Shown here: one piece after another, positions 7,870 through 24,079 of the stretch
How the letters are laid out: each line of letters starts with the position of its first letter
How positions within the stretch are numbered: the stretch's first letter is position 1
Origin: Streptomyces sp. WZ-12
Lineage (GTDB): Bacteria > Actinomycetota > Actinomycetes > Streptomycetales > Streptomycetaceae
DNA: 64,000 nucleotides
NCBI RefSeq assembly: GCF_028898845.1
Contig: NZ_CP118574.1
Span: forward strand, 1,736,001-1,800,000
Reading direction: 5' to 3'
Notes under the pieces: generated by a model
The model's database searches: none
Seen by the model: only the letters and a program-made list of their open reading frames with translations
Told to the model about the DNA's origin: nothing
Made by a program: the position numbers and the translations under genes

Positions 7870-7964
7870 GGGGGAGTAGAGAGAGACCCCAGATTCTGTC
7901 CGATCGTTGCGTACGTCAACGACTCTGGCGCTCCGGGGCATGCGAACGGCCACCCTCTGTGAGG
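7870..7964 (+). repeat. Left terminal inverted repeat, 95 bp
   Basis: Begins GGGGGAGTAGAGAGAGACCC and is identical, base for base, to the reverse complement of 23985-24079. Just inside the identity lies a hairpin, CCACCCTC followed after a short loop by GAGGGTGG (about 7950-7971), also present at the other end with a shorter loop. The hairpin lies beyond the stop of the leftmost gene and could also terminate its transcription. Confidence 0.95.
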
Positions 7965-7989
7965 AGGGTGGCCGTCGGGTCGTCAAGCA

Positions 7990-9330
7990 TCAAGCGAACC
8001 ACGCAGATGGGGTAACCAATCGGGCCCGCTCGTAAAGTTCCCGTGCAGCATGGTTTTTGAGGTGGGGGCGAATTCGCGTATACATAGATCGAATACGGTC
8101 GTCCGCACGGCCGGATTGAACACTCGGATAGTCATCAAGGGCGAGATTCCAGGTCTCGCAAGCTGCCTCAAGGTGTCCAATTTCTAGCTGACGCTCGGCC
8201 AGGGTGCACCGGTGGCGGACACGTGCACGTCGATACACACCCTGCCGTTGTCGGTCCGACTGCTCCAATGCGCTAACTGACCCAACCGTGTCGCCGAGTT
8301 CATACCGAACTTGACTCACGTGGTAGAGCAGTGACGACGGATCGTAAGAACCGAAAGCCTTTGCTCGGGATTCCGCCTTTTCCATAGCTGTCTCAGCTTC
8401 CCGGATATACGTCAACGCGTTACCGCTGTCACCGATCTGAGCTGAGGCGTGGGCCTGCTGACCAGAAAGGAAGGCACGCATCCTTGGGCCGGCATTTGGT
8501 GATGCGGACGCGGCGGCATCAGCCAACCGCATGGCTTGTCGCCCGTGTCCAAGGTCTACTGCTTGAACACTCATACCCCGCAGAGTTGTGCAGTACGTCA
8601 AATGATCCTCAGACGCACCGGCAAGTTCCAGCGCCTTTACGTAATACTGCTGGGCCAGCCCATGAACCCCTTCGTCAACGGCCATGTACCCAGTTAGGTA
8701 ACACAAGTCGGACGCAGCCGACATCATCGCTTTACGCACTGATTCGGGGGCATCGGCCTTGAGGTACGGAGCGACTGTATTCACGAGGAACGCCGCCGCC
8801 ATCGGCCGAGCATGACGGCCGCCGAACTGGTCATCAAGGTCGGAAATTCGCTCGGTCATTGCGATGACCATTTCAACTTCAGGCATTCCTACGCGCTGAG
8901 TCTGGCCCGTCTGCACAGCCTCCATTCGACCGACAACATCAGGCCAGCCTGGCACGTTGAGGGCGACAGAGAAAAGTCCAGCCTCAATAACGCTGCGGCG
9001 TGAAGGGTCCATGTCTTCCCTCCCCAAATCAACAAGCCCTTCCACGGAATTCGCACTGACATGCGATTGATTTGGGGGTGACGGAAACCCTGCCTCACTG
9101 TGCGTGACAGGGCGACCAAGTCTCCGAGCCAGGGCTTCCAAGATCAGTGTTCGAGTGCCCTCCCGTGGCATGTGGCCCTTGAGCCATTGGTGAACGGATG
9201 GCTCCCGGTACTTCACGGGCGTTCGCCGTTCGGTGCCGATGCGGTTGACCTCTTGTGCGAACTGACGGAGCGTCCAGCCAGTCTCACGGTGCAGTCGCTC
9301 AAGACCTCTGTTCGGTTCAGGCGTACCCAC
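7990..9330 (-). CDS. XRE-type helix-turn-helix regulator with TPR-like C-terminus
   Basis: 446 residues. The N-terminal 15-60 form an HTH of the Streptomyces XRE kind (TLRQFAQEVNRI, then SVHQWLKGHMP and LEALARRLGRPV). The remaining 380 residues are helical, TPR-like repeats, as in many actinobacterial regulators that respond to peptides or stress. The GTG at 9330 is the only start that includes the HTH. It is transcribed toward the left inverted repeat and divergently from the small genes at 9551-10696. It may maintain lysogeny or control those genes; this is inferred only from position. Codon use is closer to the host than that of the replication genes. Confidence 0.8.
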   Translation of the reverse strand: MGTPEPNRGLERLHRETGWTLRQFAQEVNRIGTERRTPVKYREPSVHQWLKGHMPREGTRTLILEALARRLGRPVTHSEAGFPSPPNQSHVSANSVEGLVDLGREDMDPSRRSVIEAGLFSVALNVPGWPDVVGRMEAVQTGQTQRVGMPEVEMVIAMTERISDLDDQFGGRHARPMAAAFLVNTVAPYLKADAPESVRKAMMSAASDLCYLTGYMAVDEGVHGLAQQYYVKALELAGASEDHLTYCTTLRGMSVQAVDLGHGRQAMRLADAAASASPNAGPRMRAFLSGQQAHASAQIGDSGNALTYIREAETAMEKAESRAKAFGSYDPSSLLYHVSQVRYELGDTVGSVSALEQSDRQRQGVYRRARVRHRCTLAERQLEIGHLEAACETWNLALDDYPSVQSGRADDRIRSMYTRIRPHLKNHAARELYERARLVTPSAWFA

Positions 9331-9550
9331 GTGCGCTCAACTCCTCGGACTGGTCGGGCACTTAAAGCTCTTAAAAGCCACTCCCGTTGCCACGGTACCG
9401 CTGTGCACGGCAGTCGAGTTGCCTAGAGCGAGCACAGACCACCCGTCAAAGCGTCACCCACACCCAACGTGGGGCCCCAGGTACGGGACACCCCGGCGAC
9501 CGTCCGCACGGCCCCGGGGCATGGTCACCAACCGCTAGGAGGTTGACGAC

Positions 9551-9769
9551 ATGCGCCAACATAGCGCGTGGATCATCGAACTGGTCTTGAAAGTCTTACT
9601 GCCCGCACAAGGGCGTCACCGGTCCACCAACCAACCGCCCACCACCAAACGCCCGGACACGCCGCAGGAGCGGCGGTTGCAGCGTTCCCGGCGGCGGGCG
9701 GTGTGGCTGGCGACGGTCGGAGTCGATGCCGGGCCGCGTTGGATTCACGGTGTGGAGGTGGCTGGCTAA
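9551..9769 (+). CDS. Small basic hypothetical protein
   Basis: 72 residues, rich in Arg and Pro, with no recognised domain. The ATG at 9551 follows AGGAGG at a good distance. The stop overlaps the next start (TAATG), so it heads a coupled run of four small genes divergent from the XRE regulator. Such short strings beside XRE regulators are common in Streptomyces accessory DNA. Function unknown. Confidence 0.6.
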   Translation: MRQHSAWIIELVLKVLLPAQGRHRSTNQPPTTKRPDTPQERRLQRSRRRAVWLATVGVDAGPRWIHGVEVAG

Positions 9770-9960
9770 TGCCCAGTCTGAGCGACCCCGTGCACCTGGC
9801 GGACCCGTTCCCGGAACCGAAGCCGGTTGAAGGGTGCGACGTGTGCGCCGAGTTGGTGAAGCAACGAGCCGAGCACCGGAAGAACGGGAAGCGTGCACTG
9901 GCCGCCATGTGCACGCTGGAGTTGGAGAAGCACGTCCACAAGCGGAAGAAGAAGAGCTGA
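9769..9960 (+). CDS. Small hypothetical protein with CxxC and basic tail
   Basis: 63 residues, starting at the ATG that overlaps the previous stop. It has a VCAEL segment preceded by Cys (GCDVC) and ends in the basic run HVHKRKKKS, suggesting nucleic-acid contact, but no family is recognised. Its TGA overlaps the next ATG (TGATG). Confidence 0.6.
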   Translation: MPSLSDPVHLADPFPEPKPVEGCDVCAELVKQRAEHRKNGKRALAAMCTLELEKHVHKRKKKS

Positions 9961-10208
9961 TGCCCGGTATACGCGGCATCGTCAAAACCTGGTTGTGGAT
10001 CGAGGAGTGGTGGAACCGCCACGCCAGGTACCGAGACCTGTACCGCCAACTCGACGCCTGGCGGGACGACTTCAAGGCCCGTTCCGCGTGGGTGGACGCC
10101 CTGACTGACGATGAGTTGGAGGAGATGCAGCAGCGTCTCGCTGACTGCATCGAGGCCATACAAGGCACGGCCGGCGAAGCGTCGGAACCTCCGGGCGGTG
10201 CGTCATGA
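9960..10208 (+). CDS. Small hypothetical helical protein
   Basis: 82 residues, Trp- and Arg-rich N-terminal half (WLWIEEWWNRH), then an acidic helix (DALTDDELEEMQQRLADCIE). Predicted mostly helical and soluble. It is coupled to both neighbours by overlapping stop and start codons. No domain is recognised. Confidence 0.6.
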   Translation: MPGIRGIVKTWLWIEEWWNRHARYRDLYRQLDAWRDDFKARSAWVDALTDDELEEMQQRLADCIEAIQGTAGEASEPPGGAS

Positions 10209-10429
10209 CGGGGGCGGGGAGGGTCCTGCAATGGACGCTCCAAGCGAATTCGGGACCCACGTACGTGGGGAAGTGCTGGGACTGCACGAAGTTCAGTCTT
10301 GGTACTCCTTCCAAGGATGACGCCCGGAGTTGGTGTCTTCAGCACGTGGGAGCCACCGGTCACACCGACTTCGACGTAACGGCGGAGGAGTCCTTTGTCG
10401 CCGTACTTGCGGAGCATCCGGCGACGTAG
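10205..10429 (+). CDS. Small protein resembling DUF7848
   Basis: 74 residues. The pattern of a beta-rich N-terminus (VLQWTLQ), a Cys-x2-Cys element (CWDCTKF), DDARSWCLQHVGATGHTDF and a final strand resembles small Streptomyces DUF7848 proteins, which contain a zinc-ribbon-like core. The start overlaps the preceding stop by 4 bp. Role unknown; these proteins are widespread beside XRE regulators. Confidence 0.6.
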   Translation: MTGAGRVLQWTLQANSGPTYVGKCWDCTKFSLGTPSKDDARSWCLQHVGATGHTDFDVTAEESFVAVLAEHPAT

Positions 10430-10594
10430 ACGAGGGCGGGGCCGCTGCTGGTCGCCTCGCCCGCACAGTTGTCCCGCCCTTTCCTGGGGTTCCGGGGAAG
10501 GGCGGGATCACCCCGCATGAGGGGTATCCGTTCTCGTCATCGTCAGTGCGAGAACAGTCAACATCATGATCATCAATCTGAAGGAGATCAGTTC

Positions 10595-10696
10595 ATGTGT
10601 CCTGAAAGCCCGAGCGGGGATCACGACATGCAGCCGGATGGTCCTTTCTTGTACCGGTGCACTTACTGCGGGGGCACCACCGCTCAAAGCCATTAG
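10595..10696 (+). CDS. 33-residue peptide with a CxxC knuckle
   Basis: Very short frame starting at ATG 10595 with an excellent AAGGAGA site 7 bp upstream. The C-terminal half contains CTYCGGTT, a single zinc-knuckle-like pair. The strong ribosome site argues for real translation. It is the last gene before the terminator separating the accessory block from the polymerase. Confidence 0.5.
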   Translation: MCPESPSGDHDMQPDGPFLYRCTYCGGTTAQSH

Positions 10697-10750
10697 CGAA
10701 GATCATCGGTTATAGTGTAGTCGCCTGGCTGGCGGAGCATTCAGGCGACG

Positions 10751-10785
10751 AAAGGACCCGTCAGCGTGGGGCTGGCGGGTCCTTT
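10751..10785. terminator. Bidirectional hairpin terminator
   Basis: AAAGGACCCGTCAGC pairs with GGCTGGCGGGTCCTTT around a short loop, giving an A-rich left foot and T-rich right foot. It lies between convergent genes: the small rightward genes and the leftward polymerase, whose stop is 5 bp away. Confidence 0.85.
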
Positions 10786-10789
10786 GCTG

Positions 10790-13462
10790 TCAGCGTTTGA
10801 TGTGGTGCCAGGTTTGCAGCACGTGTAGCGGGTCGAGATTCAGGATTGAATCCGCGTGTTCCTTTCTCAGATCTCGCCATGCGTAGAGTGCGCAGGCTTG
10901 GATGATTGACTTCATTTTGTTGGGTTTGGGTGCGTCGCCCCTGCGGTAGCGGCGCATTTGTCGATCGGAGACGATTCGATCGGTTATGCATTGCGCCTCA
11001 AATGGCGTGATGAGTGGTAGCCAATCGTCCCAGGTTTTTCCGAAAAGGATGGGCGCGATTCCTTCGGCGTCGAGTAGTTCCGTCCCCTCCAAACTGTTGG
11101 ATTCCTTGCCTACTGTCGTGGCACTGGGAGCATGAATCCACTGACGCCGTAGTATTCCTCGCATTGGCGGCATGCAGGGTTGGCCACTTAGGTCTTCGAA
11201 TTTCCATTCTGGGTGGACGGCGTAGTCGTCGATGACGTCTTGGAAGACAACGAGCGGCGGGCGTTTGATGGGCTTCTCGGGGTTGTTTCTGTCCACCCAT
11301 GTCACGCGGTCCCATTTGCTGCTGTCGGACTCGTAGGGCGCGATGAGCAGCCCCCCTTGCGGGTCTCGGTACATGGGCTGCACTTGCCCGATCATCATGA
11401 AGTTAAAAGGCTTCATTTGCTGCGGGTAGGGCTTTTTCGCATTGAGGGTGCGGAAGGCGTTGTAGAGGCCCCAGGATGAAACGCTGTGCGGCATGAGGGC
11501 GGGGAGGGTTCCCCATTCGGGTTCTTCGTCATCGAGGATGGCACGCCACAGTTTCTCAATCCAATCTTTGTGCTTTCCCTTCTTCGGTGCCATGAGATAG
11601 CCGAGACCATGCTCGGAACTCTTGACGATGTTCCCGGCCGCATCGGTGAGTACGTAGCGTTTAGCGCTGACGACGTAGGCGTATCCGTCAAATTCTCGTT
11701 TGAGCATGTGGGGCACGAGATCACGGTCATAGGGGTTCAGTGCGTCGAAGCGTTCAATGATGGTGTCGGGATCAGTGCCGGTTACCGCACAGGAATCTGT
11801 GTCCATGAACGCGTAATATCCGCCGGAGTCCAGAACGATTTTTTCCATGAGTGCGAGCATGAGCCGCGCCCCGGAAGTCGGCATGGTCGCCAGTGGCGGA
11901 TAGCAATACTCGCCTGGTGTTTCCTTGACTGTGCTGATACGTTGGGTTACTCCGGAACGGTGCAACAGTTTGCCCGGTGTCGGTTGGGCGAATTTCTTGC
12001 GGTTGACCTGGGCGAAGATTCCGTAACTTCCGGAGTTCACCACGGTCTTAAGGAGCGCCGCCAATTGGGGGTCGGAGTTCTTGACCCGTTGGCGCTCCTC
12101 CACTGCGTATTTGAAGAAGTCTTCTTCCGGGGATACTTCGATGCGTCCCAGGAGTGAGACCGGTTGAAGTGAGGGGGCGCGGCCGGCCGACGTGAACCGG
12201 TACGCTTTGAGCACCTTCGGGGCCTTTCCGGTGAGGAGGGTGGAGGCGATTACGTCGGGAATGGCGTACCAGAAGGGTTCGGTGGCGCTGAAGTAATTGA
12301 CGCCGATGTTTGGCGTCTCGTTCGGCCCGTATTTCGCGCGGACTGGTAGCACGTCTTTATCCGGCATGACTTGGGCTATGCCGACGAAGCTAGGCCAGTT
12401 ATCGGGGTTCAGGCAGTAGTCCACATCGACGCTGCTTAGGTCGAGATCGAATTCCACGGCTTGAATGTCGGCGGACGTGATCAGGTCCCACAAGCCCATG
12501 AGGTGACCGACGGTGGGATACATAGATGTGAAGTCGAGAACGCTGACGGGAGCCGTGGTGCGTCGGATGCGTGCTTCGGCCCGGCCGCCGAAGAAGGTGG
12601 ACATGGTGAACCCCAACACGTCGTCCGGGACTGAGGAACGCCCCATGTGCGGAGTGATGCCCATGGATTCGAAATAGCCTTTCGCCAGTGTGGCGGGCGA
12701 GTAGACCTGGTGGGCCAGTTTGGGGATGGGGTGCTTGTAGAACTCGGACAGCATGGCGTCGAAAAGGCGGGCGGTCGCTGCTACGTCCTCACGGCAGTAG
12801 TCGATGTACTCCGGGGTGATGACGCCGTGTTCCACCACAGGGTTCTTACCCTCAACGCTGAACGCCCGACAGGCGGATTCGAGGCTGTGAGGCGTGCTGG
12901 TCAGTCCGAAGGCCAGCGTGCGACAGTCGATGAACAGACCCCGCCATTTGTGCTCGGGAGTCGTGCCCCACCCTATGAACGACTTCTTCGAGTCCAAATG
13001 CTTGACTCGCAACCTGGGGCGCCAATGGTCGTTGTCCTCCCAGAGTTTGAAGGAGAATCCGCCATCGTAGAAACCTCGCGCGGCTCCTACGTCTACGGCG
13101 ATTCGGGAAATGTCGAAGGGGAGGTTGAAGCCGACTACTCCCATGCGGTACCGGTAGGCGCGTCGCCACAGGTAGTGTTCAACGAATTCGGAACGCGAAA
13201 GGAAATGCAGCTTCCGATCAGCGATCGATATTGACAGGATGCGATGGTCGATCGGGGCAGTGTGGGATTCAGCGTATTCCCGCAGTGTCGCGAACCCTTC
13301 CGGATCGCGCTCCGGCAAGTCGTCCTGATAGAAGATGCCTTCCTCAATCAGGGTGAGTATCTGCCCTTCGTGGTTGAGTTCGTAGATGCGGAACGCGCCG
13401 AAGTTGAGGTTCTGTACGGTGTCGGCGGTGGTTTCCGTATCGAAAACGAGAATGTGCCTCAC
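10790..13462 (-). CDS. polB: Family B DNA polymerase, probably protein-primed
   Basis: 890 residues. The 3'-5' exonuclease has Exo I FDTET (D8, E10), Exo II GFNLPFD (111-117) and Exo III YCRED (222-226). Polymerase motifs are A DFTSMYPT (D310), B KTVVNSGSYG (472-481), C DTDS (554-557) and KRY near 601. The interval from motif A to B is about 160 residues, long enough for the TPR1 insertion of phi29-like enzymes and much longer than in RNA-primed polymerases such as E. coli Pol II. With 95-bp inverted termini this points to protein-primed linear replication. Start is GTG at 13462. The gene closes a leftward operon with the HNH-type and candidate terminal-protein genes. Confidence 0.93.
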   Translation of the reverse strand: MRHILVFDTETTADTVQNLNFGAFRIYELNHEGQILTLIEEGIFYQDDLPERDPEGFATLREYAESHTAPIDHRILSISIADRKLHFLSRSEFVEHYLWRRAYRYRMGVVGFNLPFDISRIAVDVGAARGFYDGGFSFKLWEDNDHWRPRLRVKHLDSKKSFIGWGTTPEHKWRGLFIDCRTLAFGLTSTPHSLESACRAFSVEGKNPVVEHGVITPEYIDYCREDVAATARLFDAMLSEFYKHPIPKLAHQVYSPATLAKGYFESMGITPHMGRSSVPDDVLGFTMSTFFGGRAEARIRRTTAPVSVLDFTSMYPTVGHLMGLWDLITSADIQAVEFDLDLSSVDVDYCLNPDNWPSFVGIAQVMPDKDVLPVRAKYGPNETPNIGVNYFSATEPFWYAIPDVIASTLLTGKAPKVLKAYRFTSAGRAPSLQPVSLLGRIEVSPEEDFFKYAVEERQRVKNSDPQLAALLKTVVNSGSYGIFAQVNRKKFAQPTPGKLLHRSGVTQRISTVKETPGEYCYPPLATMPTSGARLMLALMEKIVLDSGGYYAFMDTDSCAVTGTDPDTIIERFDALNPYDRDLVPHMLKREFDGYAYVVSAKRYVLTDAAGNIVKSSEHGLGYLMAPKKGKHKDWIEKLWRAILDDEEPEWGTLPALMPHSVSSWGLYNAFRTLNAKKPYPQQMKPFNFMMIGQVQPMYRDPQGGLLIAPYESDSSKWDRVTWVDRNNPEKPIKRPPLVVFQDVIDDYAVHPEWKFEDLSGQPCMPPMRGILRRQWIHAPSATTVGKESNSLEGTELLDAEGIAPILFGKTWDDWLPLITPFEAQCITDRIVSDRQMRRYRRGDAPKPNKMKSIIQACALYAWRDLRKEHADSILNLDPLHVLQTWHHIKR

Positions 13463-13525
13463 GGTTCGAGCCCCCGAATGATGACGTCGATGACACGCGG
13501 CTTAGTCGGAATGAGGTCTTCGGGC

Positions 13526-13813
13526 TTAGGCAGCGCGAGGGGTTCGGTATCCAGTGCGGGTGTCGGGTCGGAGTCCGTAGCGTTCTGCGATGCGTCGGGT
13601 GTAGGCATTCGCGATTGTCTCCACGATGATGAGCAGTCCGAGAACCATGGCGGCGGTGCGTTGGGTTTCCTGGGTTGTCCCAGAAAGGGGAACGCCTAGT
13701 GCGCCCTGGCATGCTGTGATGCGGCGGTGGCATTCGACGCATAGTCGGATGGTGGCGTTGGAGTTTCGGCGTCCGGCTATGTGGTGTTCTTCGTAGCGCA
13801 CGTCTCTCCTCAC
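13526..13813 (-). CDS. Small HNH-type protein with one membrane segment
   Basis: 95 residues. The N-terminal 45 carry an HNH signature (EEHHIAGRRN, then LCVECHRRIT), fitting a beta-beta-alpha metal nuclease. The next stretch, AAMVLGLLIIVETIANAY, is a probable membrane helix, which is odd for a nuclease. The upstream stop and this GTG overlap, so it is coupled to the gene before; a second GTG four codons in is an alternative start. HNH nucleases recur in casposons. Whether this one cuts DNA is not shown. Confidence 0.6.
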   Translation of the reverse strand: MRRDVRYEEHHIAGRRNSNATIRLCVECHRRITACQGALGVPLSGTTQETQRTAAMVLGLLIIVETIANAYTRRIAERYGLRPDTRTGYRTPRAA

Positions 13814-14271: not shown

Positions 14272-14347
14272 TTGAGCGCCCCCTTTCAGCTACGAAAAAG
14301 GTGGGGCACACGTTCCCCATGACGCGTGCCCCACCAGCTCTTCGAGA

Positions 14348-14875
14348 TCAGGTCAGGTAGAAGGTGGTCGCCTTCCGCCAGTCGCCCTCACTGTCCGGAC
14401 GCTTTCGGGAAATCGCCCCGGTGTCGGGGTTGAACCAGTATTCGGAGGTTCGCAACCCGTCCTTGTGCATGATCGGCCCGCGTTGGCGTCCGATGCTTTC
14501 GGTAAGTTGCTTGTACTGACGGTATATCCCGGTGCCGCCGTCGTTGAGGACAGCAAGGGAGTTATCCCGCCGCATGATGACCGCTGACACAAACTCTCCA
14601 TTGTCCCCCTCGTTGAATTGCCATTCGAGTGAGACGAACGGAACCGCGATCAGTTCCCGCTTGTCCTTGATGACGGAGTAAGACTCCGAGAACTTATCGA
14701 AGTCGGCGGCGTGCGATGCGACGGATTCGAATCCAGCTTCCTGGATTCGAGTGATCTCTTCGTCGGTGAAACGGGCCGCCCCTGATTCGGGGGCGGTGGT
14801 TACGTCGGTGCTTTGCGTCGCCTTACGCGGCAATTTGACCTCCGTGTGCTGCTGGTGAGCGATAACTGTAGGCAT
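14348..14875 (-). CDS. Hypothetical protein, possible replication accessory
   Basis: 175 residues, mixed alpha/beta, no membrane segment. The first 40 residues are polar and disordered; the rest includes EWQFNEGDNGEFVSAVIMRR and an aromatic C-terminus. It is the first gene of the replication cluster (this gene, candidate terminal protein, HNH-type protein, polB). A single-stranded DNA-binding role would suit that place, but no OB-fold motif is evident, so it stays unknown. ATG at 14875 has no strong ribosome site. Confidence 0.6.
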   Translation of the reverse strand: MPTVIAHQQHTEVKLPRKATQSTDVTTAPESGAARFTDEEITRIQEAGFESVASHAADFDKFSESYSVIKDKRELIAVPFVSLEWQFNEGDNGEFVSAVIMRRDNSLAVLNDGGTGIYRQYKQLTESIGRQRGPIMHKDGLRTSEYWFNPDTGAISRKRPDSEGDWRKATTFYLT

Positions 14876-15401: not shown

Positions 15402-15888
15402 CACGACCCCCAATAACCTGGGTAGTCGCCGAGTACGTCTGCCCCCGGTAGCGCTGCTCCGTGAGCCGGTTCCGGCGGGGCCGCACCATCACCTTGGGCT
15501 TGTTGCTCCCGGCCGTCCTGGCAGCCCTCATCGCGACGGGGGTACCGGTGTGGAGCCCCGTCCGGTCCTGGTGACTCCCTCCCGACCAACGGCGCCAGGT
15601 GAAGGTATCCATGTGCAGCTCGGCACGGATCGGGCCCGAGTCCGTCCACCTGAGGGGGTCGGCAGCAGGGCGATAGTTCCCGGCCCGCCAGTAGGGCCCC
15701 CTGCGTCGCTCCTCCGTTGCCGTTGAGGGGTTGGCGAACGCGGGACCCCCGACGCGCTCAATCGGCCCCCAGGCATGCCGTATCCGGCCGCTCTCGGGCG
15801 GTCCGCCGGACGCGTCGCCCCGTCGCAGGGTCGCCGTGTCGTAGCGGGGCCGGGTGTACGGCAAGGGGGTGCTGCTGCGGTGGCTCAT
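15394..15888 (-). CDS. Basic hypothetical protein in the structural operon
   Basis: 164 residues, very rich in Arg, Gly, Pro and Thr, without membrane segments or a known fold. The ATG at 15888 overlaps the preceding stop (TGATG) and is preferred to an ATG three codons upstream. It might bind DNA or bridge capsid and membrane, but nothing in the sequence proves either. Confidence 0.55.
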   Translation of the reverse strand: MSHRSSTPLPYTRPRYDTATLRRGDASGGPPESGRIRHAWGPIERVGGPAFANPSTATEERRRGPYWRAGNYRPAADPLRWTDSGPIRAELHMDTFTWRRWSGGSHQDRTGLHTGTPVAMRAARTAGSNKPKVMVRPRRNRLTEQRYRGQTYSATTQVIGGRDG

Positions 15889-16046
15889 CACGACCATGAC
15901 CCCCCGCCGGTCGCGGCCTTGATCATCGAGGAGAACGAGGACCCAACGGAGTTGACCAGTGAGGGCCCCTGCGATCCCGGGCGCACCAGGACCATGATTC
16001 CGGCGACGATGATCACGCCGGTAAGAATGTCAATGATCTTGTTCAC
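15888..16046 (-). CDS. Small one-helix membrane protein
   Basis: 52 residues: short basic start, then the hydrophobic helix IIDILTGVIIVAGIMVLV, then a Ser/Gly tail. The GTG at 16046 sits in a GTGA overlap with the upstream stop. Part of the leftward chain of small membrane proteins. Confidence 0.6.
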   Translation of the reverse strand: MNKIIDILTGVIIVAGIMVLVRPGSQGPSLVNSVGSSFSSMIKAATGGGSWS

Positions 16047-16489
16047 GTGCTCACGCTCCCGTTTCCCTGATTTCCATTTCCCTGACTTCCGTTCCCTTGA
16101 GTTCCCATTCCGGTGCCGAAGCCGCTGTTGGTGTTGGTCGGCCACGTCACGCCGGAGAACAGTGTTTGCTCCCTGGTGTCGCTGGATTGCTTCGCATTCG
16201 CTCCGCCATCACCGGATTGAAGTGCCTGTCCGAGTTTCCCCAGGGCGCCGGAGACCAACAGCCCTTCCCGGGCCGACCCTCCGTAGACCAACAGCCCGAG
16301 CACAATCAACCCGCCAAGACCCGCTGCGACCTTTCCTGTCCGGGCTCCGAATTTCGAGGCCAGCATCAGGAATACGAACGTCAGCCATACCGCGACAAGA
16401 CGTTTCAGCCACGTCACCGGAGAAAATTTCTTCGCCACCAGGGGAAAGAGTGCGACGATGATCAGGGCTGCAAGGAACTCCGCTTTCAC
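16043..16489 (-). CDS. Membrane protein with Gly/Asn-rich repeat tail
   Basis: 148 residues with about three hydrophobic segments in the first 90 (FLAALIIVALFPLVA; LVAVWLTFVFLMLA; GLGGLIVLGLLVYGG), followed by a polar tail ending in short GNGxQ repeats. GTG start at 16489. Its stop overlaps the next start. Likely embedded in the virion inner membrane; tectivirus genomes carry several such proteins. No individual homologue can be named. Confidence 0.65.
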   Translation of the reverse strand: MKAEFLAALIIVALFPLVAKKFSPVTWLKRLVAVWLTFVFLMLASKFGARTGKVAAGLGGLIVLGLLVYGGSAREGLLVSGALGKLGQALQSGDGGANAKQSSDTREQTLFSGVTWPTNTNSGFGTGMGTQGNGSQGNGNQGNGSVST

Positions 16490-16549
16490 TGCCTGCGGAT
16501 AGCGCCCCGTTGCCTTGGGAAGAGGAATACGCGACTTCTTACCCTGCGC

Positions 16550-17078: not shown

Positions 17079-17084
17079 GCGGTA

Positions 17085-17288: not shown

Positions 17289-17290
17289 TC

Positions 17291-18409
17291 TCAGACCCCC
17301 TCAAGTTCAACCGGAACCGGTGCCACAGGCACGACTTCATCCGAGATGAATTCAGCAGTGCCGGGGACATTGGTGGCGTCATTTGGTGTGGAGGACTCGA
17401 TCACGAGATAAGTTGCGTTGGACGTGCCAAGCCAGTATTCGCCAATAAGGTCACCAGGGCGCCGGAATCGCGGGATGACGTAGACACCGGTCTCCCGATG
17501 ACTCGTCCCATTGGACAAGAACGGATAGAAATCCGTCATCTTGTTGACGATGGTGGTCGGTGAGAACACCGACAGTGAACGGTCATCGAGGCGGAACCGT
17601 ACCGGGGACGACAGATAATCCTGCCGAACCCCCTTCGAATCACGCGCCACAATGATGAGGCACCGTACCTCGTTACCGGTGTTGGTGAGTTGAAAAGTGT
17701 TGTCGGCCCCGGCCGCGTTGAGCGTCAGAATCTGGTGCCGGGTAATCGCAGCGACCGCCAACCCATCGGGCCGAGCCTGGATCGGATTGCCGTGCAAGTC
17801 CGCCGTATCCGTCTGAGCCCACGCCTCCATTACTCCGGTGACGGTAGTAATCGGCATGGTCGCCGGAACGGTGCTGTAGACCTGAGAAGCGGGCGCCATG
17901 GTGATACGAATGCGATACTGCGCACGGGCATCCGTATTCGCCAGGACCCCGGCCGTATCGCGAATCTCGGGGAACATGCGCAGCTCGAAACCGAAGTTCC
18001 CGCCGGAGTGCCCAATGTTGTGTGCTCGGGGCCCTCGTGCGGGGTCGCCGTGCCACGGAGCGCAGTACTTGTTCTGGAGATACCAGGAAAACCCGTTCAT
18101 CGGGTACTTGATCGGAGACCCGTCGATGTTCTCCAGGGAAATACTCTGGATAATCGACCATGGCGCGTCATCGTGGTACTTGGCGCTACCAGCCCCGCCC
18201 GAGTTGCTAACCTGAATGCGGATTCCCCGCAGGAACCCGCCGGGCGTGATGTTGTGGACGTATTCGTGAGCGGAAGAGTCCTGAACCAGTGAAAATTGGA
18301 AGTTCTGTTCACTGTAGTGGTTGGAGCCGACGACGAACGGAACACCGCCGGTAGCGCTCATCGTGGCGCCAGGAGCCGCACCATTGGCGCCATTAGTGGC
18401 AGCGGGCAT
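17291..18409 (-). CDS. Candidate double-jelly-roll major capsid protein
   Basis: 372 residues, close to the size of tectivirus capsid proteins (PRD1 P3 and Bam35 are similar). After a flexible Ala/Gly-rich start the protein is nearly all beta-strand. The segment GFLRGIRIQVSNSGG, followed by DAPWSIIQSISLENIDGSPI and a GFSWYLQNKY-like stretch, resembles the first jelly roll of capsid proteins in actinobacterial (Toil-type) double-jelly-roll phages. A second beta-rich half follows from about residue 215. It sits between the packaging ATPase and the small membrane proteins, the usual arrangement. ATG 18409 follows AAAGGA. Assignment rests on pattern and context, not on a search. Confidence 0.8.
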   Translation of the reverse strand: MPAATNGANGAAPGATMSATGGVPFVVGSNHYSEQNFQFSLVQDSSAHEYVHNITPGGFLRGIRIQVSNSGGAGSAKYHDDAPWSIIQSISLENIDGSPIKYPMNGFSWYLQNKYCAPWHGDPARGPRAHNIGHSGGNFGFELRMFPEIRDTAGVLANTDARAQYRIRITMAPASQVYSTVPATMPITTVTGVMEAWAQTDTADLHGNPIQARPDGLAVAAITRHQILTLNAAGADNTFQLTNTGNEVRCLIIVARDSKGVRQDYLSSPVRFRLDDRSLSVFSPTTIVNKMTDFYPFLSNGTSHRETGVYVIPRFRRPGDLIGEYWLGTSNATYLVIESSTPNDATNVPGTAEFISDEVVPVAPVPVELEGV

Positions 18410-18422
18410 GTGAATGATCCTT

Positions 18423-18575
18423 TCAATACTGGAAAGCCATTGCCTTACCGAGGTGGTTCGCGAAAGAACTGTTGGCCGCCGTCAAATGAGCTGCGATGAG
18501 TCGCCAAAGGGTGCCCACCACGACGATTCCGAGAAAGGCGCCGAGTGCCGCCATGGCACTGAAGTGCGTGTGCAT
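18423..18575 (-). CDS. Small one-helix membrane protein
   Basis: 50 residues from ATG 18575 with a strong GGAGGTG site. Helix MAALGAFLGIVVVGTLWRLI, then a polar end. It lies between the packaging ATPase and the capsid gene. The good ribosome site suggests high expression, as expected for a structural protein. Confidence 0.6.
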   Translation of the reverse strand: MHTHFSAMAALGAFLGIVVVGTLWRLIAAHLTAANSSFANHLGKAMAFQY

Positions 18576-18659
18576 ATTCACCTCCGTTCTGCATGACGAA
18601 GAGAAGCCCGGAAGAATGCCGGGGAAATACTTTTAGGGAAGGCCCCGCGGCCCAGGGTA

Positions 18660-19379
18660 CTACGCGATCCGAGAAATGTACGCAAGCCTTTTTCTGCGAT
18701 GAATGATGAGGAATTCTCGGGGCTCAAGAGACATCAACACTTCGGTGTACTTACGCCGCCCGCCGATAATCTCGGCAACTCGCTTTGCTTCATCCTCATC
18801 ACTGGGCAGAAATGCGACTGACCAGGTTGGCTCTGAATGCATGTAGCGGGATACGTACCGAGGTCGCTGTGTTGTCGCGACAATCGTGATTCCTAGGGAC
18901 CGCGCCTCTCGCCAATACTTCGTGATGAAGGGTTGAAGGCGTAGGTCCTGTTCGACGTAGGCGATTTCGTCGAAAGCGACGATGGTATTCGCGTCCGGTT
19001 TCCAGGTTTCCGCGAGAACTTCGTAGATTGCTTTGCGCTGCTGCTGAACACCTTCAGCGAGCCCCGTTGCTTTGGGCCAGAATATGACGCGTTCTTCACC
19101 GTAGGACGGTGGCCATGTGCGACGCATTTTCCACTCACCGCTTCTCGTGAGTCGCGTCATGGTCGAATCCGCTGGCTTCGTCGCGATAATCACCGCGTTC
19201 GCGCCGCTACGTCGGGCCCGTTGGTCGATGATGTGCGTCATGAAGAAGGATTTCCCGGAACCCGTCGGCCCGAGAATCGCCAAGTGTTCAGGCTCCCATT
19301 TCCCGCCCGGCCACCCCCATGAGCCGATGAACTCGGGCCCGAGTTCAGACCACGGGACTCGTTCCGGCGGCATCGTCAC
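18660..19379 (-). CDS. A32/P9-type genome-packaging ATPase
   Basis: 239 residues, the usual size for tectivirus packaging ATPases. Walker A GPTGSGKS at 37-44, Walker B TIVAFDE at 132-138, and a TTQRP sensor near 170 place it in the FtsK/HerA-related A32 group that pumps DNA into membrane-containing capsids. Its position just upstream of the capsid gene supports packaging rather than conjugation or chromosome segregation, and there is no FtsK gamma or membrane domain. The start overlaps the end of the upstream gene by 35 bp; an internal ATG two codons later is possible. Confidence 0.88.
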   Translation of the reverse strand: MTMPPERVPWSELGPEFIGSWGWPGGKWEPEHLAILGPTGSGKSFFMTHIIDQRARRSGANAVIIATKPADSTMTRLTRSGEWKMRRTWPPSYGEERVIFWPKATGLAEGVQQQRKAIYEVLAETWKPDANTIVAFDEIAYVEQDLRLQPFITKYWREARSLGITIVATTQRPRYVSRYMHSEPTWSVAFLPSDEDEAKRVAEIIGGRRKYTEVLMSLEPREFLIIHRRKRLAYISRIA

Positions 19380-19770
19380 CCCCGTTCTCGAAGCGAGAGG
19401 TGATGTGGTGCATCCGCACCGCTTGAAGAACCGGTGTGACGTGCATGAGCAGTGGAATTACCCTGCCCATGTCGGCGGTCCGCGTGAGGTACTTCCGCGC
19501 CCATTCGCTTTTCATGGCCAGCGCCGCGAGATCTTCAGCGATCAAAGGCGCCTGTTGCCCGAGAACTCCGGCACATACGTCGTCACGAGTTCCCCAAAAG
19601 ATAGCAGCGAGTTGCATGAACGCCTGCAATTGGTCGCGAATCTCCGCCTCAATCGACGCATTCGACCGCCGACCGCGCCCCTTCTTCGACTTCTCTCCTG
19701 GCTTCGGTTCTTTAGGTGCTGCTTTCGGCTCTGATTCGAGAACATCGAACTCAATTTGTGGTATCGACAT
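19345..19770 (-). CDS. Hypothetical protein heading the structural operon
   Basis: 141 residues: polar Lys/Pro-rich first 40, then helices (EIRDQLQAFMQLAAIFWG and a later hydrophobic stretch). No clear membrane helix or known domain. It overlaps the ATPase start and is the first leftward gene after the divergent promoter region (19771-19944). The overlap suggests it acts with the ATPase in packaging, but that is inference. Confidence 0.6.
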   Translation of the reverse strand: MSIPQIEFDVLESEPKAAPKEPKPGEKSKKGRGRRSNASIEAEIRDQLQAFMQLAAIFWGTRDDVCAGVLGQQAPLIAEDLAALAMKSEWARKYLTRTADMGRVIPLLMHVTPVLQAVRMHHITSRFENGGDDAAGTSPVV

Positions 19771-19790
19771 GGCTCCCCCGGATCGGGCGG

Positions 19791-19804
19791 CGAGTGCTTA
19801 CACT
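19791..19804. promoter_or_regulatory. Inverted repeat in the divergent promoter region
   Basis: GAGTG-CTTA-CACTC lies 20 bp upstream of the first leftward structural gene, in the 174-bp gap between the two divergent late operons. Placement suggests an operator. No matching copy was noticed elsewhere in the element. Confidence 0.35.
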
Positions 19805-19944
19805 CAAAGCATGCCAGCGAATTCGAGAAATCGGCAGGAGTGTTCCCACCCACCCATGCCGGTGTCCGCGTTTCCGCTGGTCAGAGGGAGAAAACACAGG
19901 GTGCCTCACGGCCCCACGGCTGTCCGGAAAAGGCAGGGAATCCC

Positions 19945-20250
19945 ATGGCACGTTTGAGCGCCGAAGAAAAAGCACTTCTTAAGCGATTGATGGAGGAAGC
20001 AGAACAGGAACAGAACGAGGCCGAACCCGAAGAGATTGCTGACCAGGTGGACGATGCCGGAACGGAGGAGATCATCGTTTTCCGGGGAAACGCGGCGGCG
20101 TTCAAAAAGGCTTTCGGCTTCGCGGTACCAGAATCCCCGAAAAATGAAGACACTGCGAAGGAATCGCCCGAGGAAACCGCCGAAGCCGAAGCGGAACCCG
20201 AGCGGAAGAAGGAACCGAAGGCGCCGAGTAGGAGCCGTTACTTTGGCTGA
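19945..20250 (+). CDS. Acidic, charged hypothetical protein
   Basis: 101 residues. The N-terminal 40 form a charged coiled-coil-like helix (EKALLKRLMEEAEQEQNE). The centre has a short mixed segment, and the C-terminal third is a disordered Glu/Pro/Lys stretch ending RSRYFG. First gene of the rightward late operon; its end overlaps the TTG start of the lysin by 8 bp. It may be a scaffold or chaperone, but no homologue is recognised. Confidence 0.6.
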   Translation: MARLSAEEKALLKRLMEEAEQEQNEAEPEEIADQVDDAGTEEIIVFRGNAAAFKKAFGFAVPESPKNEDTAKESPEETAEAEAEPERKKEPKAPSRSRYFG

Positions 20251-20899
20251 CTCCGTCGTACAAGCGATCCTTGACGCCACCAAAGACCCCCACGTGCGGG
20301 AATCCATGCTGCTTGGTTCTCGACTGGAGTCGAGTTGGAATCCGGGCGCAGTTGGCGACAACGGCACGTCCTTCGGGCCCTACCAGATCCACCTGCCCGC
20401 ACACCCCGGCGTCACGGCCGCCCAAGCGCAGAACCCCGCATGGGCGACTCGGTACATGCTCAGTGCCTACCAGCGGGGAGCCGCAGCACAGCCCGAGTCC
20501 CTGTGGCGCTCCAACCCTGAGAGGGCCGCAGAGCAAGCTGCGGTGGCTGCTGAAGCCCCCGCAGAGCCCTACTACTCCGGCCGGGGCGCCGAGAGCGTGC
20601 ACGCGGCCTGGAGGGCCACGGTGGGAGCCCTGGGGGGTCACGCACCCGCCGACGGAGCACCGCCAGGAGGGGGCGGTCCTGGCGCCACGTCGGCGCAGAA
20701 CGCGGGGCTCTTCGACTTCGGGATAGGCGGACTCATTTCCGCGATTGCCGTGCCGTTCGCGATGATTGCACAGCCTTTCGCGGAAATAGGTACGCTGCTT
20801 ACGTGGTGGTGGACCAATCGCATGAAAGTCGCGTTCATCGCGGTGGGTGTCGTCTTCTTCATCATCGGACTGGTTTTCTTCGCAAAGGACAACCTATGA
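20243..20899 (+). CDS. Membrane-anchored lytic transglycosylase (virion lysin)
   Basis: 218 residues. The N-terminal 100 resemble a lysozyme-like/SLT domain: ESSWNP with the likely catalytic Glu near residue 26, then GTSFGPYQIHLPAHPG. A Gly/Pro linker follows, then two hydrophobic helices near 155-180 and 190-212. A peptidoglycan hydrolase fixed in the virion membrane is characteristic of tectiviruses (compare PRD1 P7). TTG 20243 is chosen because AGGAG lies 8 bp upstream and it overlaps the preceding stop. The stop overlaps the next ATG. Confidence 0.8.
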   Translation: MADSVVQAILDATKDPHVRESMLLGSRLESSWNPGAVGDNGTSFGPYQIHLPAHPGVTAAQAQNPAWATRYMLSAYQRGAAAQPESLWRSNPERAAEQAAVAAEAPAEPYYSGRGAESVHAAWRATVGALGGHAPADGAPPGGGGPGATSAQNAGLFDFGIGGLISAIAVPFAMIAQPFAEIGTLLTWWWTNRMKVAFIAVGVVFFIIGLVFFAKDNL

Positions 20900-21321
20900 A
20901 GTTCAGAATCAAGGCAGGGGCAGAGGTCGATTTCCTCACGAAGGATGAACTAAATCAGGTACTCACCGACCAACTAGGCCCATGGCGGGGTGGAGTCCGA
21001 TACAAGCGCATCCCCTACTCCGGACCGCTCCCCGCAACCGTCGGTGCCCCCGAAAGCGGCTACGTCTGGTCAGTGCGGCTCCTGTCCGCCACGTTCGATG
21101 AACACAGTCCCCTACGAGTCTTCACACAATCTCTCGAAACCTCCTCGCTGGTCGGAATAGAGCGGGGTGACGAGACAGAACACGTCATGCGCTGGCAAGA
21201 CAACCAAGTCATTCTCTTCGGTACACAACCGCTCATCGTGACTGGATTGGGCGAAGCCCGACACGTCACCGGGCTCGTACACGTGGCTGAGGTACCCGTA
21301 GGGCGGGAATGGCAACTGTGA
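20896..21321 (+). CDS. Hypothetical protein, possible minor virion protein
   Basis: 141 residues, soluble, mostly beta-strand, beginning KFRIKAGAEVDFLTKDEL and containing SGYVWSVRLLSATF and QPLIVTGLGEARHVTGLVHV. Coupled to the lysin by an ATGA overlap. The beta-rich content and late-operon position suit a vertex or spike-associated protein, without sequence proof. Confidence 0.55.
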   Translation: MKFRIKAGAEVDFLTKDELNQVLTDQLGPWRGGVRYKRIPYSGPLPATVGAPESGYVWSVRLLSATFDEHSPLRVFTQSLETSSLVGIERGDETEHVMRWQDNQVILFGTQPLIVTGLGEARHVTGLVHVAEVPVGREWQL

Positions 21322-21375
21322 CGACGGGCCGGGAATACGGGATGGGAACATAGTGTTCGCCAATGTCATATGCCC

Positions 21376-21405
21376 CCGGCCCTTGACCAACTCATGGTCA
21401 ACCGG
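21376..21405. terminator. Hairpin after the first rightward late genes
   Basis: TTGACC pairs with GGTCAA around a 7-base loop, flanked by CCGG on each side. It lies 55 bp beyond a stop codon and about 85 bp before the next gene. No T-run follows, so it could be an operator or a Streptomyces-type terminator. Confidence 0.4.
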
Positions 21406-21491
21406 CCACGTTTTATTTAAGCGACATCCCGCTACCGGCGGGTTAGACTTGGACGCGTGTTCGAGTAAATGCGAGTACATGGGGGATTCAC

Positions 21492-21794
21492 GTGCTGTCT
21501 GAAATTCCAATCGAAACCGTGCCGGAGAACGAGGTACCCACCGGTCGGGGACGCCCCGGCCCCAGCCTCCCCACCTGGCTACTGGAAAGCATCTCCGCCA
21601 GCGCCCAAAAGGGTGCGTGGCTCTCCGCAAAGTTCGAGACGGCCGAACAGGCCGAAGAACTCGCGAAGCTACTCCAGTACGTCAACCGCTCCACCCGCTT
21701 CGCCTACCACGTCGCCACGCGCCGTGACGAAACCGCCGAAGGGCACCGCGTCCTGTTCAAGGCCGAGCACGACATGGGTGAGTCCAATGGTTGA
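21492..21794 (+). CDS. Small hypothetical protein
   Basis: 100 residues from GTG 21492 with GGGGG about 6 bp upstream. The middle SAKFETAEQAEELAKLLQYV is an amphipathic helix and there is a basic patch after it. The region RRDETAEGHRVLFKAEHD suggests a small alpha/beta fold. Possibly a DNA-binding or regulatory protein; no family is recognised. Confidence 0.55.
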   Translation: MLSEIPIETVPENEVPTGRGRPGPSLPTWLLESISASAQKGAWLSAKFETAEQAEELAKLLQYVNRSTRFAYHVATRRDETAEGHRVLFKAEHDMGESNG

Positions 21795-21948
21795 GGCAAC
21801 CCTCATCCTGCGGGCAGAGCTGTACCGAGAAGCTGACGACACGTTCAGCGTCGAAATCGTCGATCCAGTCACAGGAAAAACCGAGCGCCAACCGATTCCC
21901 GCTCAGTATGCCGCGATGCTCCCCCAGGTAATCGCCATGCTCCGTTAA
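21787..21948 (+). CDS. Small hypothetical protein
   Basis: 53 residues, overlapping the previous gene by 8 bp. A beta-hairpin-like N-terminus (ATLILRAELYREADDTFSVE) is followed by a short helix. A strong terminator follows 14 bp later. Unknown function. Confidence 0.5.
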   Translation: MVEATLILRAELYREADDTFSVEIVDPVTGKTERQPIPAQYAAMLPQVIAMLR

Positions 21949-21962
21949 GTACGTGCGCCACC

Positions 21963-21989
21963 AACGCCCCGACCCCGCGTCGGGGCGTT
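21963..21989. terminator. Hairpin terminator
   Basis: AACGCCCCGAC pairs perfectly with GTCGGGGCGTT around a CCCGC loop. It separates the small-gene pair from the following two genes. Confidence 0.85.
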
Positions 21990-22021
21990 CCGCGTTTCCG
22001 GACCAATAACGAGGGAATATC

Positions 22022-22372
22022 GTGCCTAGTCTTTCGCCAATCACCGAACAGGGCTCACTAGTAGACGGGACTGCATTCGGCGCACCCGGACAACAGGTCT
22101 GGGCGATCCAATTCCCGCCGGACAACCGGCCCAGGTCCTTCTATCGGATAGCGATCAACCCACCTAGCGGCATCCCGCCGAACACCACACTTGAACTCCG
22201 CAATGACTCCGTGATGATTTCCGGGGCGCCGAGCGCCACCACACGAGAATTCGAGCCGTACCACAAGGTTTCCATCCCGCCGGGTACCCGCCTCTACCTC
22301 GTGTGGCTCACTGACGCGGGCGTGAATCCACCCGTGGCGACGCTCTTCACCGAACTTGAGGGGTTGATCTGA
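22022..22372 (+). CDS. Hypothetical beta-rich protein, possible minor capsid component
   Basis: 116 residues from GTG 22022, mainly beta-strand (AFGAPGQQVWAIQFP; RSFYRIAINPPSGIPPNTTL; TRLYLVWLTDAG), resembling a single jelly-roll or immunoglobulin-like domain. A penton or decoration role in a double-jelly-roll virus is possible on size and strand content. The stop overlaps the next start. Confidence 0.5.
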   Translation: MPSLSPITEQGSLVDGTAFGAPGQQVWAIQFPPDNRPRSFYRIAINPPSGIPPNTTLELRNDSVMISGAPSATTREFEPYHKVSIPPGTRLYLVWLTDAGVNPPVATLFTELEGLI

Positions 22373-22557
22373 TGCCCTGGGGCGAAGGGACTCAACGCGC
22401 CTTTGACTCATTGCATGTGTACGACGCTGGTGGGAAGTTGGTGGCGCACATCGATGGGGAGGGCAACGCTCACTTCGAGACAGTTACCGTGAGGGCAGGG
22501 CGGTTGCGTCGCATGTGGCGACGATTGCGAGGAAAGAAGCTTCCCCAAGTTGGGTAA
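22372..22557 (+). CDS. Small protein with basic C-terminus
   Basis: 61 residues. The first 40 look like a short beta-repeat (LHVYDAGGKLVAHIDGEGNA), as in phage tail-fibre or spike stems, followed by a very basic helix (RLRRMWRRLRGKK). It overlaps the preceding gene by one base. Its partner may be the adjacent beta-rich protein. Confidence 0.45.
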   Translation: MPWGEGTQRAFDSLHVYDAGGKLVAHIDGEGNAHFETVTVRAGRLRRMWRRLRGKKLPQVG

Positions 22558-22562
22558 AACTC

Positions 22563-22591
22563 TTCGGAATTGGGGACATGGTCGATAGAAT
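22563..22591 (+). promoter_or_regulatory. Putative promoter of a leaderless cas1 transcript
   Basis: TTCGGA (22563-22568), 17 bp spacer, TAGAAT (22586-22591), then exactly 6 bp to the cas1 ATG. No ribosome site precedes the ATG. A near-identical layout precedes the next gene. Confidence 0.45.
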
Positions 22592-22597
22592 TAGAGC

Positions 22598-23647
22598 ATG
22601 ACGGATGCTGAAATCCCCGAACTGGCCGAGATTTTCGCTCCCCGCACCATCGGACCCACACTCATCGTAGAAGGCTTCGGAGCCAAACTCACCGTGGAAC
22701 GCGGACAGTTGGCCATCCACGATGGCTTCGGCCCCCACCGCCGCACCAACCAACTCTCCCGAATCGAACGGAGAGTGAAACGCATCATCATCAAAGCCGT
22801 TGACGGTTACCTCACCATCGACGCGATGAAGTGGTGCAAAGACGTGGGAATCAGCGTCATCATGCTCGATCCAGCCGGAGATGTCCTTATGACATCTCCG
22901 GCTGACACCTACTACGAAGGCCGGCTGCACCGAGCACAAGCACTCGGCAGCATCGAAGCCGTGCGGTACATCATGGATCGCAAAATCACCGGACAGTACG
23001 AGGTCAGCGGACACCCCCGGATCAAAGACCACTTGATCCGGCTGCAACACGACGTAGACACCATCCCCGAAATTACCGCGATCGAAGCCAAGACCAGCCG
23101 CTACTACTGGGCCAGCATCAGGGGCACCCAGGTCAAGTTCCGTGGCGACGTGCCCGAACACTGGACGACATTCCAAACACGCTCCTCCGCATTGCAGTAC
23201 GCAGGGAAGACACCACGTAAGGCTGTAACCCCGTTCAACGCACTGTTGAACCTTGGCTACTCGATTGGCTACGCCGAAGCACGGCTAGCCTGCCACGCCT
23301 TAGGACTCGACACGGAACTAGGGCTGCTGCACCGCCCCAAGGAACACAAGTCACACAGCATGGCTCTGGACCTAGTGGAAGTCGCCCGGCCTCACGTAGA
23401 CCAGATGGTTCTTGATCTGGTCACAGAACGAGTCTTCACTCGTCGCGACTTCCACGAAACCAACGAGGGTCAATGCACGGTGGGAAGCCCACTTGATCGC
23501 GAAGTCATCGAACAGGCGCGAGAAGCGGTCAAGGAGCCGCTAGCCGAAGCCGCTGAAGACGTTACGCACATACTTGCGGAATCGTGTGACACTAAGATCA
23601 AAAAGCGGACGCCCCTCACAAGGCGGACCCTCAAAGCTACACATTGA
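22598..23647 (+). CDS. cas1: Cas1-family integrase (casposase-like)
   Basis: 349 residues, slightly longer than CRISPR Cas1. Residues 1-95 form the beta-rich N-terminal domain. The catalytic domain has IEAKTSRYYW (E163), NALLNLGYSIGYAEARLAC, LGLDTELGLLH (H245) and MALDLVEVARPHVD (D258, E261): the Cas1 active-site set is intact. There is no cas2, effector gene or CRISPR repeat in the window, so a role in spacer acquisition is unlikely. Together with inverted repeats, PolB and an HNH-type protein it matches casposases, which insert inverted-repeat-ended DNA. A basic tail (KIKKRTPLTRRTLKATH) may bind DNA. The gene appears to be leaderless and ends about 340 bp from the right inverted repeat. Confidence 0.93.
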   Translation: MTDAEIPELAEIFAPRTIGPTLIVEGFGAKLTVERGQLAIHDGFGPHRRTNQLSRIERRVKRIIIKAVDGYLTIDAMKWCKDVGISVIMLDPAGDVLMTSPADTYYEGRLHRAQALGSIEAVRYIMDRKITGQYEVSGHPRIKDHLIRLQHDVDTIPEITAIEAKTSRYYWASIRGTQVKFRGDVPEHWTTFQTRSSALQYAGKTPRKAVTPFNALLNLGYSIGYAEARLACHALGLDTELGLLHRPKEHKSHSMALDLVEVARPHVDQMVLDLVTERVFTRRDFHETNEGQCTVGSPLDREVIEQAREAVKEPLAEAAEDVTHILAESCDTKIKKRTPLTRRTLKATH

Positions 23648-23670
23648 GTGGGCAGGTTACGCGTATCAGC

Positions 23671-23698
23671 TTCGGGTAACTCCCTGATTCGGTACGGT
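23671..23698 (+). promoter_or_regulatory. Putative leaderless promoter of the last gene
   Basis: TTCGGG (23671-23676), 16 bp spacer, TACGGT (23693-23698), then 6 bp to the ATG at 23705. It matches the cas1 promoter in both boxes and in distance to the start. Confidence 0.4.
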
Positions 23699-23704
23699 AC
23701 TTGA

Positions 23705-23956
23705 ATGAACGCCTTGGATGACTACGACACCCTTGTGCATGACTTGATTCGACGCACCGAAGCAGCGGTAGACGTGATTGCCCCCATCGCAGTGGACACG
23801 GGAATTACGTTTCAAATCGAGGACATCGTTCGGAAGGTGGAGGATGGCCTGCCGCCCGACTACCCGGAAGCCGCGATCGGCAACGATTGGACACGCCGGG
23901 ACGTGATCGCCGCCATGGCCCGGGATCTGTTCTCGGGCGACATGTACGACGACTGA
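23705..23956 (+). CDS. Small acidic protein next to cas1
   Basis: 83 residues, strongly acidic and probably all helical: LDDYDTLVHDLIRRTEAAVD, then FQIEDIVRKVEDGLP and DWTRRDVIAAMARDLFSGD. No match to Cas2 is visible (no ferredoxin-like strand pattern). Adjacent to cas1 with a matching promoter, it could be a partner or regulator of integration or excision, or an unrelated late protein. It ends 28 bp from the right inverted repeat. Confidence 0.6.
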   Translation: MNALDDYDTLVHDLIRRTEAAVDVIAPIAVDTGITFQIEDIVRKVEDGLPPDYPEAAIGNDWTRRDVIAAMARDLFSGDMYDD

Positions 23957-23984
23957 ACCTAAGCGGCACACCCCGAACGGCCAC

Positions 23985-24079
23985 CCTCACAGAGGGTGGC
24001 CGTTCGCATGCCCCGGAGCGCCAGAGTCGTTGACGTACGCAACGATCGGACAGAATCTGGGGTCTCTCTCTACTCCCCC
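23985..24079 (-). repeat. Right terminal inverted repeat, 95 bp
   Basis: Exact reverse complement of 7870-7964, ending in CTACTCCCCC. Just inside lies a CCACCCTC/GAGGGTGG hairpin whose loop is 3 bp shorter than at the left end. Outside the repeat the two flanks diverge at the first base. Confidence 0.95.

Follow-up and report, generated by a model that had tools for sequence, protein, structure and literature searches.

A probable tectivirus-like provirus with a casposase-type Cas1 in Streptomyces and its putative insertion target

We read the element bounded by inverted repeats in the window, that is, the whole 64-kb stretch of Streptomyces DNA analysed here, as a Toil-like tectivirus in its proviral state, with a Cas1 of casposase type serving as the integrase, and we put the probability of this reading at roughly 0.78. 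Its direct basis is the gene content, the predicted folds, the terminal inverted repeats (TIRs), the 14-bp duplications in two relatives, a shared target repeat and purifying selection, while catalysis by the window Cas1, protein priming, excision and particle formation are inferred.

Cas1-bearing tectivirus-like proviruses are a kind described in 2018, and the window holds a further one. Yutin et al. 2018 reported a Toil-like major capsid protein (MCP), ATPase and PolB together with a casposon-type Cas1 in the S. albulus chromosome, and interpreted this as acquisition of a casposon cas1 by a tectivirus-like prophage (PMC5894146); Krupovic et al. 2014 had counted the S. albulus island among the casposons (PMC4046053). 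The main idea of the initial annotation, which had offered the Cas1/tectivirus combination as new, was therefore already in print. The S. albulus element shares with ours these four genes and a Streptomyces chromosome; it belongs to a different genome (CP011533), and the comparison is by published description. To this we add an inferred target of insertion with its 14-bp spacing, a picture of how the genes have been selected and exchanged, the finding that the Cas1 is short, and a relative from the same genus that apparently has no capsid.

An integrated element with tectivirus and casposon genes

The outer ends at 7870 and 24079 match as reverse complements at 95 of 95 positions inward and at none outward, exactly as first annotated, and the extended repeat (104 nt, 97% identity) is far above chance. 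Counted in 1-kb windows, GC content ranges from 0.56 to 0.68 over the sixteen that cover 8001-24000 and from 0.68 to 0.80 over the remainder of the 64 kb. Between the TIRs lie genes for Cas1, PolB, a capsid protein and an ATPase for packaging; the TIRs match perfectly, the main ORFs are open, and the element is confirmed as genuine and integrated. With its TIRs and a PolB of its own it shows two casposon traits. The features are collected in Table 1.

Table 1 Features of the element and its flanks (window positions)
Feature	Position	Strand	Basis
Remnant of left hairpin arm	7827..7869	+	Lacks the second arm and the left 14-bp copy
Left terminal inverted repeat	7870..7964	+	95/95 match with right repeat
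NsdA-family regulator, accessory gene at left end	7990..9330	-	NF053720 E 2.2e-133
Family B DNA polymerase (PolB), nearest fold phi29	10790..13462	-	phrog_1907, predicted fold
HNH-like protein	13526..13813	-	Motif by eye; 31% to like-placed L021 protein
Protein common to tectiviruses Toil, P19, Badulia	14348..14875	-	E 8e-7, 3e-11, 1e-12 respectively
Membrane DNA delivery protein, tectivirus type	15888..16145	-	phrog_8052 E 1.4e-7
Small hydrophobic protein	16043..16489	-	Hydropathy; conserved in S. noursei
Major capsid protein, predicted double jelly-roll	17291..18409	-	tblastn, predicted fold
Small hydrophobic protein between ATPase and capsid genes	18423..18581	-	Hydropathy
Genome packaging ATPase (HerA/FtsK type)	18660..19379	-	DUF87, phrog_2666, tectivirus ATPases
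Candidate membrane-anchored lysin	20036..20899	+	Weak NCBIfam match, hydropathy
Casposase-type Cas1, 349 aa, without C-terminal HTH	22598..23647	+	Pfam, PDB profile match
Right terminal inverted repeat	23985..24079	-	Repeat comparison
Right target copy, CTCCCGTGAGTGGG, 14 bp	24079..24092	+	Found at 24079 by exact pattern
Dispersed host repeat with hairpin; element inside or beside it	24090..24434	+	Own-genome copies, 80-87% identity

The double jelly-roll proposed for the capsid candidate is borne out by its predicted fold, and tblastn against tectivirus capsid proteins gave a best E of 2e-25; a PDB sequence search with the MCP alignment returned nothing above chance level (best E 0.017, a non-capsid protein). 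The packaging ATPase was recovered with DUF87 above its Pfam cutoff and phrog_2666 at E 4e-20, and its tectivirus homologues, together with the capsid matches, support the proposed tectivirus relationship. PolB is weak in Pfam (5.8e-5, below cutoff) but matches phrog_1907 at 3.1e-14 and is clear from its phi29-like predicted fold, as annotated; neither a PDB sequence search with its alignment nor a search of phage records gave a match, and no terminal protein was identified for the window element.

Two further assignments held in part. The HNH-type protein carries a motif recognised by eye and is 31% identical over 65 aa to a like-placed protein of a Cas1/PolB element, L021, described below; Pfam matched neither protein. 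The membrane lysin is plausible but unproved, having a strongly hydrophobic C-terminal stretch but no Pfam match and a single, sub-cutoff NCBIfam match (E 0.022). The many tiny membrane proteins of the initial annotation correspond to several small ORFs with membrane-type hydropathy.

The element has partial counterparts in tectiviruses and in casposons. The tectiviruses Toil, P19, Forthebois and Badulia have MCP and ATPase homologues, a PolB and, in most records, inverted ends; unlike the window, their records gave no Cas1 match, the order of the genes is different, and the Toil PolB (596 aa) was unmatched by tblastn. Casposons share the solo Cas1, the PolB, the HNH-like protein and the TIRs, as well as the target duplications seen in the element's relatives, but Krupovic et al. 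2014 reported finding no capsid protein in them, in contrast to the capsid and packaging genes found here (PMC4046053).

A short Cas1 and its distribution

Cas1 is unambiguous at the family level (PF01867 E 7.9e-29; TIGR00287 above its NCBIfam cutoff). The best PDB match of a 24-row profile was 6opm, the M. mazei casposase, at 3e-43, followed by the CRISPR Cas1 4n06 at 2.8e-41, a narrow margin of two orders of magnitude. E163, H245 and E261, which we take to be the catalytic residues of Cas1, are invariant in 24 of 24 rows. The casposase-like character first proposed is supported by these sequence comparisons. A single-sequence search found no other Cas1 in the host genome, and no regularly spaced repeat family indicative of a CRISPR array beside cas1 was found between 5000 and 27000 of the window.

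The protein is short. Apart from the Cas1 domain, Pfam gave one chance-level match and no C-terminal HTH. The M. mazei casposase has 431 aa, and removal of its C-terminal HTH abolished integration (PMC6977970), which speaks against a simple transfer of mechanism to the HTH-less window enzyme. In a tree of 25 rows, 11 Streptomyces-type sequences form one group (support 100/100), with lengths of 347-376 residues. Thirteen of the other 14 rows have 414-593 residues; the exception, P0024 of Saccharopolyspora hattusasensis, has 369, and its placement in one clade with the Streptomyces type gave a p-AU of 0.437. An earlier tree had an outgroup of seven CRISPR-like ORFs from Streptomyces, six of the original 13 having been removed before it was built; the outgroup branches were very long, and it was unused for rooting. 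Neither tree includes row P0026 or the partial rows P0007 and P0011. Capsid genes were observed right next to Cas1 only in the window and in Streptomyces noursei. Since the S. hattusasensis clusters for Cas1 (P0024), PolB (P0040) and MCP (P0154) each have a longest contig of equal size (8,742,384 bases), the short Cas1 form may be associated with the capsid.

Among 392 Streptomyces genomes, the window's own included, Cas1 was found in 16, strongly in three (G000, which is the window's own, G311 and G256), the MCP in seven (one weak) and the TIR in three (G000, G175 and G311). The window's own genome is the only one with matches to both Cas1 and MCP, and the Cas1 profile matched none of the six other MCP-bearing genomes. 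A contig scan yielded one relative, a collinear element with 86% identical TIRs in S. noursei A-2-1 (NZ_CP070326.1). Given these six genomes and the published reading of cas1 acquisition, the suggested link between the origin of the CRISPR integrase and a virus is not supported; our data do not contradict the published acquisition.

Two of the strong Cas1 genomes hold informative elements. In G256, a TIR-flanked element of about 11.4 kb (L021:2524-13971; 66-base arms at 86%) encodes Cas1, an HNH-like protein (HNH_5 label), an exonuclease and PolB. Its Cas1 has 514 aa with a DUF4096-like C-terminal stretch, and neither MCP nor ATPase was matched within it, apparently making it a capsid-less element in the same genus; the contig stops at the right arm, leaving the flanks unreadable. 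In G311, an internally deleted relative of 4.7 kb (L020:9848-14509; 119-base arms at 97%) is bounded by near-perfect inverted ends, between which the second half of Cas1 adjoins the PolB end.

Wider searches gave little. IMG/VR scans gave no relative by Cas1 protein or alignment and no exact TIR pattern. Cas1 matched two of 50,697 phage records, both partially (21% and 33% identity) and without annotation, and 23 of 72,556 plasmid records, where 18 of the 20 matches listed are annotated as CRISPR cas1 and two lack annotation. When PolB was searched across the class at E <= 1e-20, one of 393 genomes matched besides the window's own: G445, a genome from another family, carries a PolB of the present family (L097:12879-15734), with no Cas1 or MCP match in the 20 kb around it. 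L052 and L053 were queried only with genes of the window and L021.

Two further Streptomyces assemblies deserve mention. Strain NPDC059152 carries two Cas1/PolB pairs (P0001, P0002, P0027, P0028) whose longest contigs, of 15,577 and 15,682 bases, are about the size of a whole element; these are either extrachromosomal copies or assembly breaks at repeats. A 16.8-kb contig (L048:1-16823) has inverted ends of 21 bp and encodes an MCP and an ATPase of tectivirus type; it is probably a complete extrachromosomal prophage, and its genome gave no Cas1 match.

Target sequence and 14-bp duplications

We read the flanks with the TIR terminus taken as GGGAGTAG. Only S. noursei and G311 offered both flanks, and duplication lengths were read from the printed sequences. 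In S. noursei, CTCCCGTGAGTGGG (14 bp) abuts both ends, and in G311 both ends are abutted by CCTCCGGCAGACGG (14 bp), giving 14-bp duplications of two different sequences in two of two relatives. Published casposase duplications are 14-15 bp in A. boonei (PMC6614799) and 14 bp in M. mazei (PMC6977970), with a casposon median of 15 bp (Krupovic et al. 2014, PMC4046053). The window copy is without a target duplication; the duplications at the TIR ends of the relatives support the initially proposed Cas1-type insertion.

The right flank of the window begins with the 14 bases of S. noursei and continues into the same dispersed repeat. Since the flanks of the two elements have only this repeat in common, the loci differ, and the same putative target repeat lies at two unrelated sites. 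In S. noursei, a hairpin whose arms are 32 bases long has the target at its foot. The M. mazei casposon is alike in that its 14-bp duplication adjoins a feature of the host, in its case the 3' end of a tRNA-Leu; it differs in residing in an archaeon and in not being described as a virus (PMC6977970). Searches of open-access literature, by listings and passages, brought up no account of a target repeat, or of Cas1 exchange, for Streptomyces elements; the main text of Yutin et al. 2018 does not contain 'target site' (PMC5894146), and a duplication for S. albulus may be given in the supplement of Krupovic et al. 2014, which tabulates casposon duplications.

With two mismatches allowed and the sites at the elements counted, CTCCCGTGRGTGGGTGGG has 16 matches in the window's genome against 1 for the reversed motif, 12 against 1 in S. 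noursei and 6 against 2 in G311; with three allowed, the window's genome has 30 against 14. At 11 of its 29 non-element sites, the 80 bases just upstream fold strongly, with z of -4.5 or lower from mononucleotide shuffles. Single TIRs in S. noursei and G311 adjoin similar C-rich sequences. No such sequence adjoins the single TIR in G175, and no such hairpin lies upstream of the G311 deletion copy; the hairpin would at most be an insertion preference.

In-genome copies of the repeat were used in place of an empty site: the left flank (5501-7869) matched none of 11 relatives' loci (L037-L047, 1.5 kb either side), although all 18 relatives from the genus have a strong homologue of the gene on the right side. 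Just outside the element, the left flank also carries four contiguous 65-bp repeats (7561-7820), and elsewhere in this genome parts of them are found close to further copies of the hairpin repeat.

The left flank stops within the left hairpin arm, CTCCCGTGAGTGGG is absent there, and by eye about 70 bp, including the left 14-bp copy, are missing relative to the repeat copy L064. Having lost one target copy and a hairpin arm, the window copy might be a locked or decaying provirus for which exit is impossible, and the internally deleted relative in G311 fits such decay. We consider this unlikely, given the perfect TIRs and the open main ORFs; moreover, because a casposase acts on the element ends, an intact target duplication may be dispensable.

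Selection, exchange and the proposed mechanism

Between the window and S. noursei A-2-1, identity is 99% for the MCP, 98% for the ATPase, 94% for PolB and 75% for Cas1. Across 13 genes, dS is 0.23-0.86 for the other 12 (MCP 0.47, ATPase 0.41, PolB 0.45) and 1.50 for Cas1, a value near saturation and not exact. Cas1 has a history different from that of the other element genes, and exchange is the best reading of this divergence. The left ends differ as well, with the NsdA-family regulator in the window in place of HTH-DUF5753 and DUF397 genes in S. noursei; in the G175 remnant (L099), a protein end similar to that regulator, by eye, adjoins a TIR. Constraint among the 13 genes is strongest on the MCP and the ATPase (dN/dS 0.014 and 0.018, against 0.078 for PolB, 0.104 for Cas1 and a maximum of 0.398 for the DNA delivery protein), and the capsid genes are therefore strongly conserved as proteins.

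The unlike divergence of Cas1, together with its missing HTH domain, would also fit a passenger Cas1 that processes ends, serves repair or interferes with host defence, something else inserting the element. This is improbable, since scans of 10 proteins with Pfam and NCBIfam and of 20 with PHROGs matched no recombinase or transposase family and the duplications have casposase length. A casposon carrying capsid genes as cargo and moving solely as a transposon would explain why Cas1, PolB and the HNH-like protein recur in L021, where no capsid gene was found, but is improbable in view of the constraint on MCP and ATPase and the retention of the DNA delivery protein.

Under the preferred reading of a tectivirus provirus with Cas1 as integrase, a linear genome with inverted ends would be copied by its own PolB, probably protein-primed. 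Cas1 would join both ends to positions 14 bp apart in a target that is often a C-rich sequence, CTCCCGTGAGTGGG for example, where a hairpin in the chromosome has its foot, and gap repair would duplicate the 14 bp. The provirus would then persist, its left-end regulator being exchangeable, and the ATPase could package its genome into a double jelly-roll, membrane-containing capsid.

More tentatively, and at somewhat short of even odds, actinobacterial Cas1-tectiviruses may be a living lineage in which an HTH-less Cas1 serves as a swappable integration module, inserting at the foot of dispersed hairpins with duplication of 14 bp, a viral counterpart of the leader-plus-repeat recognition of CRISPR Cas1. 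Such a lineage would reach beyond Streptomyces, with S. hattusasensis carrying MCP, PolB and short Cas1 on one contig, while capsid-less Cas1/PolB elements would persist in the same genus.

With a concrete end sequence, target repeat and 14-bp spacing, the integrase activity of a Cas1 carried by a virus becomes testable in vitro. The passage of casposon integrases into viruses can be studied where capsid genes are almost identical but the neighbouring Cas1 has diverged, and where the same genus also has an apparently capsid-less Cas1/PolB element.
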